Assembly (NCBI GenBank): GCA_015066115.1
Contig: SVOZ01000001.1
Span: forward strand, 124,001-188,000
Direction: 5' to 3'
From: Oscillospiraceae bacterium
GTDB taxonomy: Bacteria > Bacillota > Clostridia > Oscillospirales > Ruminococcaceae
DNA length: 64,000 nucleotides
The translations under genes were made by a program, and so were the position numbers. The notes below the pieces were generated by a model, which was given only the letters and a program-made list of their open reading frames with translations, had not been told where the DNA came from and ran no database searches. Below are positions 2,093 through 40,626 of the stretch, piece by piece; the stretch's first letter is position 1, and every line of letters starts with the position of its first letter.

Positions 2093-4159
2093 ATGAAACA
2101 GTATCCAATCGACAAAATAAGAAACGTAGCCCTAACAGGTCACGGTGGAAGCGGAAAGACCACTTTTGCCGAGGCATTATTATACATAGCAGGTGCTACC
2201 GACCGTTTTGGCAAAATTTCAGACGGAAACACAGTTTTTGATTTTGACCCCGAAGAAATTAAGAGAAAGACTTCTGTTTCGTCAGCGGCTGCTCCTTATG
2301 AGTGGAAGGATTATAAGGTTAATTTAATAGACTCACCCGGTGCTTTTGACTTTGAAGGCGGTCTTATTGAGGCTGTTACTGCAAGTGACACCGTTGTTAT
2401 TGAGCTTTCGGGTAAATCGGGTGTAACTGTTGGTGCACAGCGCGCCTGGGATCTTGCAAAGGCTCAGAAAAAGGCAAGGATGTTCTTTATTTCTAAGCTT
2501 GACCGCGAAAGCGCAAACTTCCAAAAGGTTTTCAATGAGCTTCGCGAGCTTTACGGACATTGTGTTTGCCCTGTTGTTATTCCTCATGGCAAGGAAGGCC
2601 ACGTTGAGTGCTATATAGATATCGCAAGAAATAAGGCATACACCTATGATGAAAGCGGAAAAGAAACAGAGGTTGCCATTCCGCAGGATGATTTTCTTAA
2701 TAAGGCACATGTACTGCTTACAGAAGCAGTTGCTGAAAGTGACGAAGAATTATTTGAAAAATATTTGGCCGGAGAAACCTTTACCGAGCAGGAGATCATA
2801 AAAGGTCTTCGAGCAGGCGTTTGCGATGGAAGCATCGCTCCCGTGCTTTGCGGAAGCGCTCTGTTCCTTGCGGCTGTTGAGCGTTTTCTCTATGCTATTA
2901 ACGATTATGCGCCTTCTCCTGCAGATAATGTCAGCGTTGCTTTTGATAAAGAAGGCCAAAAGGTCGAAGTTAAATGTGACGAGAGCGAACCCGCAATGCT
3001 TCAGGTGTTTAAAACTGTTGCAGACCCGTTTGTTGGTAAGCTTTCTTATTTCAAAGTGCTTTCGGGCAAGATCGACTCTGATACGAGCCTTTTAAATGCG
3101 TCAAACGGACAGCAGGAAAAGATAGGTAAGCTTGTAATCATAAAGGGTAAAAAGCAAGAGGATGTTAAATCTATCAGCGCAGGTGATATAGGCGCTGTTG
3201 CTAAACTTGCAACAACCGTAACAGGAGATTGCCTCTGCGCTCCCTCAAGAGTGCTCAAATGTGCGCCCCTGCCTTTCCCGCGTCCGACTCTTATGCAGGC
3301 AGTTGTTCCTAAAAATAAAGGTGATGAGGGCAAGATCTCTCAGAATATCCAAAGGCTCAGAGAAGAGGATCCCACCCTCGACTTTGCAGTTAACCCCGAA
3401 ACCAGACAGCAGGTTATTTCAGGCCTTGGTGAACAGCACCTTGATGTTGTTGTTTCTAAGCTTAAATCTAAGTTTGGTCTTGAAGTAAATCTTGAAAAGG
3501 CCCGTGTGCCTTACCGCGAGACAATTAAGAAAAAGGTAAAGGTTCAGGGTAAATATAAAAAGCAGTCGGGCGGACACGGCCAGTATGGCGATGTTTGGGT
3601 CGAGTTTGAGCCCTGCGATAGCGACGATATGATCTTTGAAGAAAAGGTGTTCGGCGGAGCTGTTCCTAAAAACTTCTTCCCGGCAGTTGAAAAGGGACTC
3701 CGCGATAGTATGGATAAGGGCTTTTTGGCAGGCTATCCTATGGTTGGCGTTAAGGCAACATTGGTTGACGGATCTTACCATCCCGTTGACTCCTCTGAAA
3801 TGTCCTTTAAGCTTGCCGCCAATGTAGCATTTAAAAATGCTATGGCAGATGCATCACCCGTGCTCCTTGAACCCATCGTTAAGCTCACGGCAAACGTTCC
3901 CGAAGCCAACACAGGCGATATCTTAGGCGATCTTAATAAGCGCCGCGGCAGAGTTTTGGGAATGAATCCTGCAGGCAAGGGAATGAGTACAGTTGAGGCT
4001 GAGGTTCCAATGTCCGAGATCGGCGATTTTACAACAGTCCTGCGTTCTATGACTCAGGGAAGAGGCAGCTTTGAGACCGCTTTTGAGCGCTACGAACAGC
4101 TTCCTACAGCTCTTGAGGAAAAGGTTATTGCAGATAACAAGGCTAATATGAGTGAATAA
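2093..4159 (+). CDS. Elongation factor G-like GTPase (EF-G2-type paralog)
   Basis: P-loop GHGGSGKT, G3 DSPGAFDF, SKLDRE in place of NKMDR, full EF-G domain layout including C-terminal 'VPMSEIGDFTTVLRSMTQGRGSFETAFERYEQLP'. Confidence 0.9.
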   Translation: MKQYPIDKIRNVALTGHGGSGKTTFAEALLYIAGATDRFGKISDGNTVFDFDPEEIKRKTSVSSAAAPYEWKDYKVNLIDSPGAFDFEGGLIEAVTASDTVVIELSGKSGVTVGAQRAWDLAKAQKKARMFFISKLDRESANFQKVFNELRELYGHCVCPVVIPHGKEGHVECYIDIARNKAYTYDESGKETEVAIPQDDFLNKAHVLLTEAVAESDEELFEKYLAGETFTEQEIIKGLRAGVCDGSIAPVLCGSALFLAAVERFLYAINDYAPSPADNVSVAFDKEGQKVEVKCDESEPAMLQVFKTVADPFVGKLSYFKVLSGKIDSDTSLLNASNGQQEKIGKLVIIKGKKQEDVKSISAGDIGAVAKLATTVTGDCLCAPSRVLKCAPLPFPRPTLMQAVVPKNKGDEGKISQNIQRLREEDPTLDFAVNPETRQQVISGLGEQHLDVVVSKLKSKFGLEVNLEKARVPYRETIKKKVKVQGKYKKQSGGHGQYGDVWVEFEPCDSDDMIFEEKVFGGAVPKNFFPAVEKGLRDSMDKGFLAGYPMVGVKATLVDGSYHPVDSSEMSFKLAANVAFKNAMADASPVLLEPIVKLTANVPEANTGDILGDLNKRRGRVLGMNPAGKGMSTVEAEVPMSEIGDFTTVLRSMTQGRGSFETAFERYEQLPTALEEKVIADNKANMSE

Positions 4160-4332: not shown

Positions 4333-4799
4333 GTGAAACTTGACACAGAAAGTTTAGCACATACGAAGTGGAATTGCAAATATCATATAGTATTTGCACC
4401 AAAATATCGCAGACAGGTGATATACGGAAAGATAAATCAGATATAGGGATAATGTTGAGAAAGCTATGTGAATACAAACAGGTGGAAATAATAGAGGCAG
4501 AAGCCTGTAAAGATCACATACATATGCTTGTATCAATACCGCCCAAGTATAGTGTATCACAAATAATGGGATATTTAAAAGGGAAAAGTAGTCTAATGAT
4601 ATTTGAGAAGTACGCAAATATGAAGTATAAATATGGAAACAGACATTTCTGGTGCAGAGGATATTATGTAGATACAGTGGGGCGCAATAAAAAAGTAATA
4701 GCAGAATACATAAGAAATCAACTGCAAGAAGATGTAGCAAGTGATCAACTATCATTCAAGGAGTACATAGACCCGTTTACGGGTCAGCAGGTAAAATAA
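4333..4799 (+). pseudogene. tnpA: IS200-type transposase (tnpA), single-base frameshift
   Basis: GTG 4333 frame reads VKLDTESLAHTKWNCKYHIVFAPKYRRQVIYGKI then hits a stop; the +1-shifted frame continues KSDIGIMLRKLCEYKQVEIIEAEACKDHIHMLVSIPPKYSVSQIMGYLKGKSSLMIFEKYANMKYKYGNRHFWCRGYYVDTVGRN... Break lies at the A run near 4434-4436. Confidence 0.85.
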
Positions 4800-6931: not shown

Positions 6932-6948
6932 TAAGTTTGGTGATTAAA

Positions 6949-8109
6949 ATGAATAAAAAGCCGAAAAAATATAAGATTTACAGCGTCCGCAGGGTAAATA
7001 GAACCCTGCTGACTTCTGTTGTTTTGTCCGTTATAGCCTGCGCGCTTGCCCTGGTGCTTCTTTTTGTGCTCGTTCTCGGCCCAAATGATAAAACATCGTC
7101 GGGCGGCTCGTCATCTGCTATGGCGGTGTCTGAGGTTTCAAGTGCGGTGGCGCAGTCTGAGGTAGAAACCTCGTCGATTGCGCAAACAAGTAGCCAGGCT
7201 TCAACATCTTCAAAAACTATGGCAACATCTTCGGCGTCTTCAAAAACTAATGAGACTTCAAAGGTAGCTTCTGTGGCCACGGGAAACAAAAACAATTACG
7301 GGCTTCCTTTTGATGTTTATGCCGAGGCTAAAGAGTGGACCTATGTGGTGGATAAAAGCAAACCTGTTCCTCTTCAGCCCTGCGTTGATAACAGCTTCTT
7401 TACAGATGCGATGTTTGTTGGTGACTCAATAACAACCGGAATTGACCTTTATAACATAGTAAGCAATGTTCCTGTAGTGGCTTACACGGGAATAAACTCA
7501 AACACCATTTTAACCCGTGAGGTTATAAAAACCTCGTCCGGAAAGGTTACATTTTTGCAGGCAATGAAAAAATACAACCCCAAACATATCTATATTATGC
7601 TTGGAATTAACGGAATTGCGTTTCAGTCTAAGGATAAGTTTATAAGCGGTTATTCCAAATTTGTTGATGAGGTAAAGAAACAGCACCCCAATGCTGTGAT
7701 CTATCTACAATCCATTCTTCCTGTTACGGCAAAAAAGCAAAGCAACGATAGTCGATTTGCTAACTCAAAAATAAACACATATAATGCGGCCATAGCCCAG
7801 CTTGCCAAAGATAAAGGTGTTTATTATCTGAATGTGGCAGAATCCTTTAAGGATGCAAACGGAAACCTGCCTTCTGCCGCATCAAGTGACGGAATACATT
7901 TCGGAACAGGGTATTACAGACGCTGGATAGAATATCTTAAAAGACACACGGTTTATACCGGTAAAATACCTACGGCAACCTCTTCCAAGGCGCCAACAAG
8001 CAGTGCCGCGGCAGGCAGCAGCGCTCCAACAAGCAGCGCGGCAGAATCATCCTCGTCGCAGGCTACAACAAGTGTTTCGGTCTCTTCAGAGCAAACAACT
8101 TCTCAGTAA
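6949..8109 (+). CDS. Membrane-anchored SGNH/GDSL-type hydrolase with Ser/Thr/Ala-rich linker and tail
   Basis: N-terminal TM helix; block I FVGDSITTGI, LGINGIAF, C-terminal SDGIHF; Ser-rich segments before and after the domain. Confidence 0.75.
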   Translation: MNKKPKKYKIYSVRRVNRTLLTSVVLSVIACALALVLLFVLVLGPNDKTSSGGSSSAMAVSEVSSAVAQSEVETSSIAQTSSQASTSSKTMATSSASSKTNETSKVASVATGNKNNYGLPFDVYAEAKEWTYVVDKSKPVPLQPCVDNSFFTDAMFVGDSITTGIDLYNIVSNVPVVAYTGINSNTILTREVIKTSSGKVTFLQAMKKYNPKHIYIMLGINGIAFQSKDKFISGYSKFVDEVKKQHPNAVIYLQSILPVTAKKQSNDSRFANSKINTYNAAIAQLAKDKGVYYLNVAESFKDANGNLPSAASSDGIHFGTGYYRRWIEYLKRHTVYTGKIPTATSSKAPTSSAAAGSSAPTSSAAESSSSQATTSVSVSSEQTTSQ

Positions 8110-8116
8110 ATAAAAA

Positions 8117-8153
8117 ATAAGCCCTCTGCCTTTAAGCAGAGGGCTTATTTTTT
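8117..8153. terminator. Bidirectional Rho-independent terminator
   Basis: aataagccctctgc/gcagagggcttatt between convergent genes. Confidence 0.75.
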
Positions 8154-8161
8154 AAGCTAAA

Positions 8162-8278
8162 TTAGCTGCAGGAGCAGCCACATCCGTTATTGTCGTTACC
8201 GCAGCAGCAAACAAGGATGATGATGAGAAGAATGATCCAGGTGCAGTTGCCGTTACCGAAGAAGTTGTTTCCACACAT
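8162..8278 (-). CDS. Small Cys-rich membrane miniprotein (38 aa), putative sporulation-associated
   Basis: Reverse strand ATG with strong SD (aaaaaaggaggaaacgcacATG): MCGNNFFGNGNCTWIILLIIILVCCCGNDNNGCGCSCS*. Below the length cut-off of the supplied ORF track. Confidence 0.65.
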   Translation of the reverse strand: MCGNNFFGNGNCTWIILLIIILVCCCGNDNNGCGCSCS

Positions 8279-8308
8279 GTGCGTTTCCTCCTTTTTTAGA
8301 TTTCATCA

Positions 8309-8336
8309 TATACTATGAGATTTGTGGGAAAATGGT
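8309..8336 (-). promoter_or_regulatory. Putative sigma-K-like promoter for the 38-aa miniprotein
   Basis: Reverse strand ACC - 16 nt - CATAGTATA, matching the -35 AC / -10 CATANNNTA pattern. Confidence 0.4.
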
Positions 8337-8469
8337 TACACATATGTTTTTAAAACAAATCAACCTATAAAATCTAAAGCAAAATCAAGAAAAAGTTAGA
8401 AAATGTAAGATATTTTAAATTATTTGAATTTATTTGGGAAATTTGGGGGTAATTATAATAATTATAAAG

Positions 8470-8486
8470 TTTGACTTTCTTTGACT
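8470..8486. promoter_or_regulatory. CtsR operator (heptad direct repeat)
   Basis: tttgact-ttc-tttgact (reverse complement AGTCAAA-GAA-AGTCAAA), matching the CtsR consensus RGTCAAA-NAN-RGTCAAA, upstream of ctsR. Confidence 0.85.
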
Positions 8487-8546: not shown

Positions 8547-8996
8547 TTGAAAATAAGTGAACTTATTGCAAGAGAAATTCTTTCCATGTTAGAAGAACAG
8601 GATGGAACTGCGGAAATAAAACGAAACGATTTTGCCGCAAAGCTCGGCTGTGTTCCCAGCCAGATAAACTATGTTTTGTCTTCGCGCTTTACAACAGAGC
8701 AGGGCTATGTAATAGAAAGCAGACGCGGTGGCGGCGGATATGTTAAAATAACCCGCATTTGTAATGATAAAAAGAGCCAAATAATGCATATCATTGATTC
8801 GCTCGGTTCTCAGATAGATTATTACAGTGCGCGTTCAATATTAATAAATCTTTGCTATCAAGAGCTTATCGAGCAAAAGGCGGCATCAATCGTTTTGGCG
8901 GCGATTTCAGATAACGCCCTCAAAGATGCTCCTTTGCAGGTTAAAGATAAGGTCAGAGCAGAAATTTTTAAAAACGCCTTGTTAATGGCGGTGTAA
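8547..8996 (+). CDS. ctsR: Transcriptional repressor of heat-shock genes CtsR
   Basis: ISELIAREILSMLEEQDGTAEIKRNDFAAKLGCVPSQINYVLSSRFTTEQGYVIESRRGGGGYVKI; TTG start; first gene of the ctsR-mcsA-mcsB-clpC operon. Confidence 0.95.
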   Translation: MKISELIAREILSMLEEQDGTAEIKRNDFAAKLGCVPSQINYVLSSRFTTEQGYVIESRRGGGGYVKITRICNDKKSQIMHIIDSLGSQIDYYSARSILINLCYQELIEQKAASIVLAAISDNALKDAPLQVKDKVRAEIFKNALLMAV

Positions 8997-9014: not shown

Positions 9015-9536
9015 ATGTTGTGTGAAAAATGTAAAAAAAATCAGGCAGTTACTCATATAAGACAGAATATAAACGGAAATCTTACCGAAATGCATCTTTG
9101 TGAAAACTGTGCCGCCGAAATAACCGGCAAGTTTGAAAACGAGTACAGTAAGCTTTTCTCTGATTTCGGATTTGGAATTGATTCGGTGCTTGGCTCAATT
9201 TTCGGTCAAGACTTTCTTTCCGAGAATCTGCTTTCCGAGCCCGAAGAAAAATGTCCAATGTGCTCTGCAACCTTAAGTCAAATAAGGAAAAGCGGAAATG
9301 TTGGATGTAGCCACTGCTATCAAACCTTTCGTTCCCAGCTTATGCCGCTTATTTCGCGTATTCACGGAAAAACAGCGCATAACGGAAAGATTCCGGCATC
9401 GGTTGAGGGTAAAATTTCGGTTAAGGCACAGATAACAGAGCTTGAAAATCAGCTTAAAACTGCAATTGACGAGCAGGAATTTGAAAAAGCCGCTAAGCTT
9501 CGCGATGAGATAAATGCCCTTAAAAAGTCGATTTAA
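9015..9536 (+). CDS. mcsA: McsA, activator of protein-arginine kinase
   Basis: Paired CxxC zinc motifs (CEKC...CENC, CPMC...CSHC) and C-terminal UVR motif; operon context. Confidence 0.93.
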   Translation: MLCEKCKKNQAVTHIRQNINGNLTEMHLCENCAAEITGKFENEYSKLFSDFGFGIDSVLGSIFGQDFLSENLLSEPEEKCPMCSATLSQIRKSGNVGCSHCYQTFRSQLMPLISRIHGKTAHNGKIPASVEGKISVKAQITELENQLKTAIDEQEFEKAAKLRDEINALKKSI

Positions 9537-9557: not shown

Positions 9558-10589
9558 ATGAATAAATGGTTTGAAACAGATAATAAAACTAATGACCGCG
9601 GCGTTGTTGTGAGCACAAGAATTCGCCTTGCAAGAAACCTTTCGGATATTCCGTTTCCCAATAAAATGAGTGGAGAACAGAAAAAGGATGTTATTGACAG
9701 GGTTTCAAAGGCTCTCTCTAAGGCCAAGTTTGCAAAGGATATAACCCTTAAAATGATAGATATGGAAAAGCTCGACAATATTGAGGCTAACGCTATGGCA
9801 GAGCGCCGTATCATCAGCCCCGAATTTGCCTCAAACAGAGAGGGAAGGGCTATCTTTATTTCGCAGGATGAAAGCGTTGCCGTCCTTGTAAATGAGGAGG
9901 ATCACATTCGAATTCAGGTGCTCGCGTCAGGCTCTGACCTGCCTGTTTGCCTTAAAATAGCAAGCGAGATCGACACCTATTTGGATAATAAGCTTAGCTT
10001 TGCTTTTGACGAAACTCTGGGCTATTTAACACAATGTCCCACCAATCTCGGAACAGGACTCAGAGCATCTGTTATGCTTCATCTGCCTATGATGGAGTCT
10101 GGGAAAATGATTGAAAATTTAGCGAGCACCGTTTCAAAGCTTGGAATGACTGTTCGCGGCTCTATGGGTGAGGGCTCTGCTTCAAGAGGAGCGCTTTATC
10201 AGATCTCCAATCAGGTAACCCTCGGAATTTCAGAGCAAAATGCCATTGATAACCTTATGAGCATTGTAAATCAGGTTATCAGACAGGAAGAAAATCTCAG
10301 AAAAAACGCTTATGAGCATGACAGGATTTCAACCGATGATAAAATCTACAGAGCACTTGGTCTTCTCTCAACTGCAAGACTTCTATCAAGCGATGAGCTT
10401 CTTCATCTTTTGTCGCTTGTAAGGCTTGGAGCATCTCTCGGCGTTGTGAAAACGGATGTTTCGGTTTTAAACACGCTTCTTTTTGAAACAGGCGCGTATT
10501 CTGTCTGCGCCAGATATGGAGAAGGCGTTGATTTGAGAAAAAGGGATGAACTGCGCGCTCTGTTTGTAAGAGAAAAATTATCTGCTTAA
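9558..10589 (+). CDS. mcsB: Protein-arginine kinase McsB
   Basis: STRIRLARNL, phosphagen-kinase-like fold motifs, operon context. Confidence 0.95.
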   Translation: MNKWFETDNKTNDRGVVVSTRIRLARNLSDIPFPNKMSGEQKKDVIDRVSKALSKAKFAKDITLKMIDMEKLDNIEANAMAERRIISPEFASNREGRAIFISQDESVAVLVNEEDHIRIQVLASGSDLPVCLKIASEIDTYLDNKLSFAFDETLGYLTQCPTNLGTGLRASVMLHLPMMESGKMIENLASTVSKLGMTVRGSMGEGSASRGALYQISNQVTLGISEQNAIDNLMSIVNQVIRQEENLRKNAYEHDRISTDDKIYRALGLLSTARLLSSDELLHLLSLVRLGASLGVVKTDVSVLNTLLFETGAYSVCARYGEGVDLRKRDELRALFVREKLSA

Positions 10590-10608: not shown

Positions 10609-13068
10609 ATGTTTGTTTTTAATTCGTTTACTCAAAAAGCAAATAAAACCCTAAACGCCGCAATAGAGTTTGCCCAGAGTTTAGGGCACACCTATATCGG
10701 AAGCGAGCACCTGCTCGGCGGCTTTTTAAAGGAAGAGGATTCGGCGGCATCAGAGCTTTTAAGAGATGCCGGTCTTACCTATATAGATTTATTTGAACAG
10801 CTTGAAACTGATGTAGGCAAAGGAATGCCGTCAACTCTAAGTCCTGCAGATTTCACTCCGCGTACAAAGAGAATACTTGAGTCGGCAGTTTTAGAGGCGC
10901 GAAAAATGGGGCATAGCTATGTCGGAACAGAGCATCTGTTTTTGGCCCTTTTAAATGAGCAGGATTGCTATGCCGTAAAGTATTTAGAGGTTTTCGGCGC
11001 AAGTGTTTCAGAATTGCGTCGCGACTGCCTTGATGCCATTGGCAGCGATGCACAAGCGGTGGGTGACGGCGGTTCTGTTGGAGCAACAAATAGACCTAAA
11101 GCAAAGTCGTCTACCAAGGCGCTTGATGAATTTTCGCGCGACTTAACTTTGGCCGCTAAAAACGGCGAGCTTGACCCCGTTATCGGCAGAGAAACCGAGA
11201 TTGAAAGGGTCATCCAGATCCTTTCAAGGCGTACAAAAAATAATCCCTGCCTTATAGGTGAACCCGGCGTCGGAAAAACAGCCGCCATTGAGGGACTTGC
11301 TCAAAAAATAGTTGAAGGTCAGGTCCCTGAAATACTCAAAAACAAAAGGGTTGTAACCCTTGATTTAACTGGTATGCTTGCGGGCACAAAGTATCGCGGC
11401 GATTTCGAGGAAAGAATAAAAAATGTGCTTGCTGATGTCAAAAAAGCAGGCGATGTTATCCTCTTTATCGACGAAATTCACACCCTTATCGGTGCGGGTG
11501 CTTCCGAGGGCGCAATTGATGCGGCAAATATCTTAAAACCCTCGCTTTCGCGTGGCGAAATTCAGCTTATCGGAGCTACAACAATAAATGAGTATCGTAA
11601 GCATATAGAAAAGGACGCCGCTTTAGAGCGTAGATTTCAGCCTGTTATGGTGGACGAACCCTCGCAGGAGGAGGCAGAGCAGATTCTCTTTGGTCTGCGT
11701 GATAAATACGAAGCGCACCATAAAATTAAAATAACCGACGAGGCAATAAAGGCCGCCGTAAAGCTTTCTGCAAGATATATTAATGACCGTTTTCTTCCCG
11801 ATAAGGCAATTGACCTTATCGACGAGGCGGCTTCGCGTGTAAAGATAAAGAACTTTACAGCGCCGCCCGACCTAAAAGAGCTTGAGGATGAGCTGAAAAA
11901 GCTTGGTCTTGAAAAGGCTGAGGCGGTAAACACTCAGGATTATGAGAGAGCGGCAGAGCTTCGCGATGAGGAAAATGATGTTAAAGCAAAAATTGATGAG
12001 GCTAAAAAGAATTGGCAGCAGGGAAATCAAAAGGAAAAAAGCGAGGTTAGTGCCGAGGATGTTGCCGATATTATAGCGCAGTCAACAGGCATTCCTGTTT
12101 CGCAGTTAAGCCGCGAGGAAAGTGAAAGACTTCTTAAAATTGAGGAAACTCTCCATCAGCGCGTTATCGGGCAGGATGATGCTGTTTCGGCCGTTGCAAA
12201 GGCGGTGCGCAGAAGCAGAGTAGGTCTTAAGGATCCCAAACGCCCGATTGGCTCATTTATTTTTCTTGGACCCACAGGCGTTGGAAAAACCGAGCTTTGT
12301 AAAGCACTTGCCGAGGGCCTTTTTGGCGATGAAAACGCAATGATAAGGCTTGATATGTCTGAGTATATGGAAAAGCACACGGTGTCGCGTCTTGTTGGCT
12401 CTCCTCCCGGATATGTCGGCTTTGACGAGGGCGGTCAGCTCACCGAGAAGATAAGAAGAAATCCTTATTCTGTTGTGCTTTTTGATGAGATCGAAAAGGC
12501 TCATCCCGATATTTTCAACATCCTTCTTCAGATACTTGATGATGGACAGCTTACCGACTCTCACGGCAGAAAGGTCAACTTTAAAAACTCTGTTATTATA
12601 ATGACTTCTAATGTCGGCGCAAGAATGATAACCGAGAGTGTAAAGTCTTTGGGCTTTGCAGGCTCTGATTCATCCGCCGCAGATGAGGAGAAGATAAAAG
12701 AGAATGTAATGGGCGAGCTTAAAAAGACCTTCCGTCCCGAGTTTTTAAACCGCGTTGACGATATTATCGTTTTCCATAAGCTCAGCTCGGAAAATATCCG
12801 TGAGATCGCCAAAAATATGCTCAAAAATGTTGCAGAGAGAATATGCACTCTTAAAATAGACATTTCATTCACCGAAGAGGCAATTTCTGCCATTGCAGAT
12901 AAAGGCTTTGACGCTGTTTACGGTGCAAGACCGCTTCGCCGCGCCATAACCTCTCAGATCGAGGATATGATTTCCGAGGCAATCCTTTCAGGAACCTTAA
13001 AAGAGGGCGATAGCGTTACCTGCACATTCTCCGACGGAAAATTTATTCTTGAGTCTATTGAAAAATAA
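10609..13068 (+). CDS. clpC: ATP-dependent Clp protease ATP-binding subunit ClpC
   Basis: Clp_N repeats, two AAA modules (GEPGVGKT, GPTGVGKTE), UVR linker. Confidence 0.95.
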   Translation: MFVFNSFTQKANKTLNAAIEFAQSLGHTYIGSEHLLGGFLKEEDSAASELLRDAGLTYIDLFEQLETDVGKGMPSTLSPADFTPRTKRILESAVLEARKMGHSYVGTEHLFLALLNEQDCYAVKYLEVFGASVSELRRDCLDAIGSDAQAVGDGGSVGATNRPKAKSSTKALDEFSRDLTLAAKNGELDPVIGRETEIERVIQILSRRTKNNPCLIGEPGVGKTAAIEGLAQKIVEGQVPEILKNKRVVTLDLTGMLAGTKYRGDFEERIKNVLADVKKAGDVILFIDEIHTLIGAGASEGAIDAANILKPSLSRGEIQLIGATTINEYRKHIEKDAALERRFQPVMVDEPSQEEAEQILFGLRDKYEAHHKIKITDEAIKAAVKLSARYINDRFLPDKAIDLIDEAASRVKIKNFTAPPDLKELEDELKKLGLEKAEAVNTQDYERAAELRDEENDVKAKIDEAKKNWQQGNQKEKSEVSAEDVADIIAQSTGIPVSQLSREESERLLKIEETLHQRVIGQDDAVSAVAKAVRRSRVGLKDPKRPIGSFIFLGPTGVGKTELCKALAEGLFGDENAMIRLDMSEYMEKHTVSRLVGSPPGYVGFDEGGQLTEKIRRNPYSVVLFDEIEKAHPDIFNILLQILDDGQLTDSHGRKVNFKNSVIIMTSNVGARMITESVKSLGFAGSDSSAADEEKIKENVMGELKKTFRPEFLNRVDDIIVFHKLSSENIREIAKNMLKNVAERICTLKIDISFTEEAISAIADKGFDAVYGARPLRRAITSQIEDMISEAILSGTLKEGDSVTCTFSDGKFILESIEK

Positions 13069-39945: not shown

Positions 39946-40626
39946 ATGTTTTTTGAAATTATAAATCTAATTTGCAGTATTTTTCATTTTGCCCTGCATT
40001 TAAGCGGAGAAAGCTTTCCAAAACCGCTTTCTTTAAAAGAGGAAAAGGAATGCTTTGAAAAAATTGAACAAGGGGATCAGAATGCCCGAAATAAAGTTAT
40101 AGAACACAATTTGAGGCTTGTGGCTCATGTGGTTAAAAAATATAATCAGAGCGGTGTTGATCAGGATGACCTTATATCGATTGGCACAATTGGGCTTATA
40201 AAAGCGGTTTCGGGATATAGCTACAAAAAAGAAACAAAGTTTGCAACCTACGCCTCAAGATGTATTGAAAATGAGATACTAATGTATTTCAGAAGCCTTA
40301 AGAAAAGCTCGCAGGATGTGTATATCAGCGATCCCATTGACACAGACTCAGAGGGAAACGCCCTGTCGCTTATCGATATTGTTGCAGATGAGAGACGCAT
40401 CGATGATGACATTGAGGAAAAGCTCAGAAGTGAGAAACTTTATAAATATGTGGTAGAGAGCCTGACTCCAAGAGAGAGAACCATCATAAAAATGAGATAC
40501 GGACTTTGTTGTACAACTCCGCTTACACAAAGAGAGGTTGCAGCAAGAATGAAGATTTCTCGTTCTTATGTAAGTAGAATAGAGAAAAAAGCGCTTCAAA
40601 AGCTCAAAAAAAGATTTGAACGGTGA
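39946..40626 (+). CDS. sigK: RNA polymerase sporulation sigma factor SigK
   Basis: 'RNKVIEHNLRLVAHVVKKYNQSGVDQDDLISIGTIGLIKAVSGY...' with short N-terminal hydrophobic pro-sequence-like region; intact ORF. Confidence 0.92.
   Translation: MFFEIINLICSIFHFALHLSGESFPKPLSLKEEKECFEKIEQGDQNARNKVIEHNLRLVAHVVKKYNQSGVDQDDLISIGTIGLIKAVSGYSYKKETKFATYASRCIENEILMYFRSLKKSSQDVYISDPIDTDSEGNALSLIDIVADERRIDDDIEEKLRSEKLYKYVVESLTPRERTIIKMRYGLCCTTPLTQREVAARMKISRSYVSRIEKKALQKLKKRFER

Follow-up and report, generated by a model that had tools for sequence, protein, structure and literature searches.

A family of cysteine-rich miniproteins with sigma-K-type promoters and a predicted role in late sporulation

Introduction

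SpoVM is a tiny sporulation peptide that acts at the membrane. Tiny sporulation proteins are also found in Bacillus among the YjcZ proteins (TIGR01732, tiny_TM_bacill), and yjcZ of B. subtilis is included in the list of the sigma-K regulon (PMC517825). The Cys-rich proteins of the spore exterior considered here are of a different size class. CdeC, CdeM and CdeA of C. difficile are Cys-rich exosporium or spore-surface proteins that multimerise (PMC7677010), and CotY/ExsY and CsxA are self-assembling Cys-rich building blocks of the coat or exosporium (PMC8546674, PMC7333573). The spore surfaces of gut Oscillospirales-type bacteria are almost unknown, since Bacillus coat proteins are poorly conserved there; many of these bacteria are uncultured or hard to culture.

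Here we analyse a gene for a Cys-rich miniprotein located in a stretch of 64,000 nt (the window) of an Oscillospiraceae genome of 1.6 Mb in 16 contigs. Together with its relatives, the miniprotein constitutes a new, unnamed family of tiny Cys-rich proteins of predicted late sporulation function. Like YjcZ, these proteins are tiny and Gly-rich, have one hydrophobic stretch and appear to be under sigma-K control, which for the miniprotein is read from the promoter sequence only; unlike YjcZ, they have a Trp that does not vary and a Cys content of about 22%. Membership in TIGR01732 was considered and rejected, as the window's own genome has no match at E<=1 and none of 70 members of the family match. 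The likeness to CdeC, CdeM and CdeA lies in Cys content (21% in the miniprotein and 22.5% over the family, against about 8-9% in CdeC/CdeM), but the Cde proteins are much larger and show no relationship to the miniprotein detectable with Pfam or NCBIfam. CotY/ExsY and CsxA differ in being full-size proteins with no family match to the miniprotein. The difference from SpoVM is that the miniprotein has no NCBIfam or Pfam match, is Cys-rich and is predicted to be under sigma-K rather than earlier control. Comparison of the 70 members with Pfam, NCBIfam and PDB returned chance-level matches only (for the window protein, the best single family match is TMIE at E 1.1, also at chance level), and no description of the family was found in the literature searched. 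An entire family of sub-60-residue proteins is missing from the main curated libraries.

Results and Discussion

The miniprotein gene and its surroundings

The gene encodes MCGNNFFGNGNCTWIILLIIILVCCCGNDNNGCGCSCS, a protein of 38 aa with 8 Cys that ends in CGCSCS. Translation of the reverse strand reproduces the ORF proposed in the initial annotation, together with its eight Cys and strong Shine-Dalgarno sequence (SD), and the divergent intergenic region that the annotation placed between this ORF and ctsR is equally real (Table 1). The terminator, on the other hand, had been assigned to the miniprotein gene as its own, and turns out to be common to this gene and the convergent GDSL gene; the scan picked up the plus-strand part of it. 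The heptad repeat beside ctsR, which we take to be CtsR-operator-like from the operator consensus, lies more than 130 bp from the miniprotein promoter, and the two are separate elements. A search of the window with Rfam at gathering thresholds gave one tRNA and no other match. Among the genomes compared, the nearest named relative of the host is a goat-rectum MAG assigned to Oscillospiraceae (L031).

Table 1. Features of the window discussed in the text
Feature	Position	Strand	Remarks
Elongation factor G-like protein gene	2093-4159	+	NF009381, 890 bits; precedes the transposase gene
IS200/IS605-family transposase gene	4368-4799	+	NF033573, 111 bits
GDSL-lipase/acylhydrolase gene	6937-8109		convergent with the miniprotein gene
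Bidirectional intrinsic terminator	8112-8153	.	6-nt loop on an 18-bp stem, with a T/A tract at either side
Cys-rich miniprotein gene	8162-8278	-	ATG 8278-8276, stop TAA 8164-8162
Shine-Dalgarno AAGGAGG	8287-8293	-	8 nt 5' of the miniprotein ATG
-10 element CATAGTATA	8309-8317	-	sigma-K/E type
-35 element GTAAC	8335-8339	-	AC at 8336-8335 marks sigma-K; 17 nt from the -10
CtsR-operator-like heptad repeat TTTGACT-TTC-TTTGACT	8470-8486	.	beside divergent ctsR
ctsR	8547-8996	+	divergent neighbour of the miniprotein gene; Pfam CtsR PF05848
mcsA	9015-9536		3' of ctsR
mcsB	9558-10589		3' of mcsA
ClpC-type AAA+ ATPase gene	10609-13068		3' of mcsB
sigK	39946-40626	+	NF004471, 304 bits (cut-off 252); uninterrupted; Arg in SRSYVS

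Conservation of the encoded protein

The length of the miniprotein ORF is by itself uninformative, because 164 ORFs of at least 30 aa overlap the first 20 kb of the window. With short ORFs this common, the sequence might be taken for a spurious ORF within a conserved non-coding region. Its conservation, however, is that of a protein. The 38 residues alone find matches in 91 of 249 genomes sampled from the host's taxonomic family, and a profile built from 28 relatives detects the protein family across genera, in 124 of the 249 genomes and 77 of the 126 genera. Synonymous changes predominate in seven close pairs, with 46.5 synonymous against 16.5 nonsynonymous differences over about 159 synonymous and 660 nonsynonymous sites, and the pooled pN/pS of 0.085 excludes the spurious ORF, to which we attach next to no probability. 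Judged by these substitutions, the family is under strong purifying selection. The protein-level conservation, the low pN/pS and the conserved promoter described below place the ORF above chance, and the conservation in related genomes that the initial annotation named as a check is thereby found.

Outside the taxonomic family the distribution is patchy. Matches occur in 16 of 349 genomes sampled across the phylum, including the window's own genome and one other of its family; among the matches are short related forms, one of which is MADAKFDGIFGGNCLWIILLILLICCCCGGGFF (L269). SpoIVA is encoded in 15 of these 16 carriers but also in 299 of the 349 genomes overall; since nearly all sampled genomes have SpoIVA, its co-occurrence with the miniprotein is uninformative. 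Some members come from incomplete or fragmented genomes for which SpoIVA was not detected, which weighs against the explanation proposed below.

A sigma-K-type promoter

The miniprotein gene is preceded by a promoter of the form GTAAC-N17-CATAGTATA (full element GTAACCATTTTCCCACAAATCTCATAGTATA, 8339-8309), which is the sole occurrence of the strict pattern GTAACM-N13-16-CATANNATR in the host genome. A two-part element of this kind is repeated upstream of the ORFs of the family, in its clearest form as tGTAACa/c - 16-17 nt - CATAgtATa/g. CATANNATR is found in 95 of 113 family upstream regions; dinucleotide shuffles give 2.46 +/- 1.55, and among 860 control regions 1.4% have it. AC[AC]-N14-17-CATANNAT is found in 85 of the 113, against 0.57 in shuffles and none of the controls. 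The control regions precede different ORFs of these loci, chosen mechanically (ATG, at least 120 aa), and some of these ORFs are not genes.

The composition of the -35 element bears on the identity of the sigma factor. The sigma-K -35 of C. difficile carries AC and the sigma-E -35 carries ATA (PMC3789822), and in B. subtilis the difference in specificity is explained by one -35 base together with a single residue, which is Gln in sigma-E but Arg in sigma-K (PMC517825). Among the 90 miniprotein genes with an unambiguous -10 element, AC is present at a spacer of 15-17 nt in 87 (55 at 17 nt, 31 at 16 nt), and ATA in 2. The host encodes SpoIVA (710 bits), a SigE-like protein on contig C6 that reads SQSYIS, with Gln, and the SigK of the window with Arg at the specificity position. 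Transcription of the miniprotein gene is predicted to depend on this SigK. The AC-bearing -35, the 16-17-nt spacer and the CATA-type -10 are thus those of the sigma-K regulon, in a host with the matching SigK and sporulation genes. From the family-wide promoter, the SigK, SigE and SpoIVA of the host and the recurrent ctsR or clpC neighbourhood, there is hardly any doubt that the miniprotein gene is a sporulation gene of the late mother cell, under sigma-K. The sporulation link suggested by the initial annotation gains support from the same observations and from the conservation of the protein. A recognisable -10 element is absent in 18 of the 113 members, which counts against sigma-K control and the coat role proposed below. 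The promoter signature can be used for finding more sigma-K genes in these lineages, and the family as a late-sporulation marker gene for metatranscriptomes.

Two further promoter sets were considered as controls and set aside. Regions upstream of spoIVA gave no clean sigma-E set, as an ORF closely precedes spoIVA in most relatives; for dpaA, a candidate sigma-K control, the window's own genome has no match and the other matches fall under the cut-off. The sigK gene itself is intact, without an interrupting element, and the N terminus of its product is extended by a hydrophobic stretch (MFFEIINLICSIFHFALHLSGESFPKPLS...) that looks like a pro-sequence. A subgroup of relatives (L018, L022, L116, L130, L157, L182, L194, L202 and others) have a leader of 60-80 nt in which a hairpin (TATGAAAC...GTTTCAAATACATTA) follows directly on the -10 element and precedes the SD; this leader may serve in regulation or in stabilising the transcript.

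Gene neighbourhoods

Synteny beside ctsR, proposed earlier as a check, proves to be recurrent. In 62 of the 114 collected genes the miniprotein gene divergently adjoins ctsR (27) or clpC (35); 12 of the loci beside ctsR had been retrieved by way of CtsR itself, and the less biased figure for ctsR or clpC adjacency is about 50 of 102. A coat role gives no explanation for this neighbourhood. From this adjacency, though from nothing else seen here, a functional tie of the miniprotein to ClpC is possible: induced by sigma-K, a small membrane protein might act on ClpC/McsB as adaptor or inhibitor and so redirect Clp proteolysis late in the life of the mother cell. We regard such an activity as quite improbable: the miniprotein promoter is distinct from the CtsR operator, the near-uncharged Cys/Gly/Asn-rich sequence is unlike known adaptors, and the conserved position may reflect inherited gene order alone, so that placement by clpC could be no more than an ancestral arrangement. 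The relatives located elsewhere also speak against it. Seventeen of the 114 genes sit between mltG and a pair encoding 5-formyltetrahydrofolate cyclo-ligase and DJ-1 (which we take these three genes to be from their sequences rather than from family searches), and three (L172, L197, L212) follow sigK on its own strand at a distance of 83-129 bp, an arrangement that also favours the sigma-K reading. The shortest, tail-less members of the family (22-28 aa) are found in the mltG locus, and some genomes have both places occupied (e.g. L004 and L164 in G084).

Linkage to spoIVA was also considered, but the relatives within 10 kb of it (e.g. in G230, G100 and G055) are too few for a claim. In one locus (L012) the miniprotein gene lies between clpC and sigK.

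Family composition and proposed role

The 114 genes collected from the loci of relatives encode 110 distinct proteins with a median length of 44 aa (range 22-76), a lower bound for the size of the family. Their composition averages 22.5% Cys, 21% Gly and 17% Asn, with a mean of 0.27 Lys+Arg per protein, figures that are partly by construction, as collection required a Trp with a hydrophobic run, at least four Cys and an SD. Matching SDs are accordingly present in all collected relatives. The family core reads C-x-W-[ILV]~9-C(C)(C) and is followed by a Gly/Asn/Cys tail; C-x-W is present in 98 of 110 proteins, and a Cys after the hydrophobic core in 106.

By analogy with CdeC, CdeM and CdeA and with YjcZ as a tiny protein of the sigma-K regulon, the most likely role of the miniprotein is that of a disulfide-crosslinked component of the spore surface. 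Under sigma-K, a short monocistronic mRNA would yield abundant miniprotein in the mother cell during late sporulation. The Trp and the Ile/Leu/Val segment might bring the protein to the outer forespore membrane or let it pack within the coat, and the N-terminal Cys, the Cys triplet and the CGC tail might form disulfides with one another and with other coat proteins, which would harden the spore surface once out of the reducing mother cell. We consider this explanation as a whole, a late sigma-K mother-cell protein rich in Cys, Gly and Asn that is disulfide-linked at the spore surface and belongs to an unnamed family, to be probable, with considerable room for doubt. The family provides a conserved and readily recognised candidate spore-surface component in about half of the genomes of one large taxonomic family. 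A more elaborate version of the explanation, in which tiny sigma-K peptides of Clostridia in long- and short-tailed forms, supplied from the clpC/ctsR and mltG loci, polymerise through disulfides into a hydrophobic mesh layer of their own at the spore surface, is conceivable but rather doubtful.

The spore-surface role competes chiefly with metal binding and with an adaptor function at ClpC. A CGC or C-x-C-x-C motif occurs in 87 of 110 proteins, the window protein included, and the C-x-C tail might chelate Zn, Cu or Fe in the manner of a metallothionein, in a sigma-K-controlled peptide acting in the mother cell or on the spore with the hydrophobic segment as its anchor. No metallothionein match was returned by Pfam, NCBIfam or PDB, however, and it is not the tail that all members share: several short members of 22-28 aa (e.g. 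L006, L008, L011) retain the hydrophobic core and the CCC while having no CGC tail. We hold a metal-binding function to be unlikely.

The hydrophobic core, for its part, is present in every member. In the window protein it has a 19-residue Kyte-Doolittle maximum of 2.07, and AlphaFold predicts beta structure from the single sequence but a 14-residue helix (residues 13-26) from an alignment of 15 rows, both with low confidence (pLDDT about 60). The single transmembrane helix of the initial annotation is therefore uncertain, the hydrophobic run being short and the models of low confidence. SpoVM and CmpA are of comparably small size, and the core would also suit a tiny late mother-cell peptide serving the physiology of the forespore or mother-cell membranes, with Cys that have no cross-linking role. 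This too seems improbable: the core is short (a median of nine aliphatic residues after the Trp) and has no flanking positive charge, and the Cys content of 22% is well beyond the needs of a simple anchor.

Variant and related forms

The miniprotein gene is tandemly duplicated beside ctsR in several loci, with three copies in L009 and two each in L070, L071 and L082. The short paralogs of the mltG locus (L006, L008, L011, L030, L164) have SDs of the GAGGTGA type. A distant relative within the phylum (L275/L285 in G287) contains three tandem ORFs of 25-30 aa ending in EWLVFIILLLL[VI]CCND, possibly a related tiny family.
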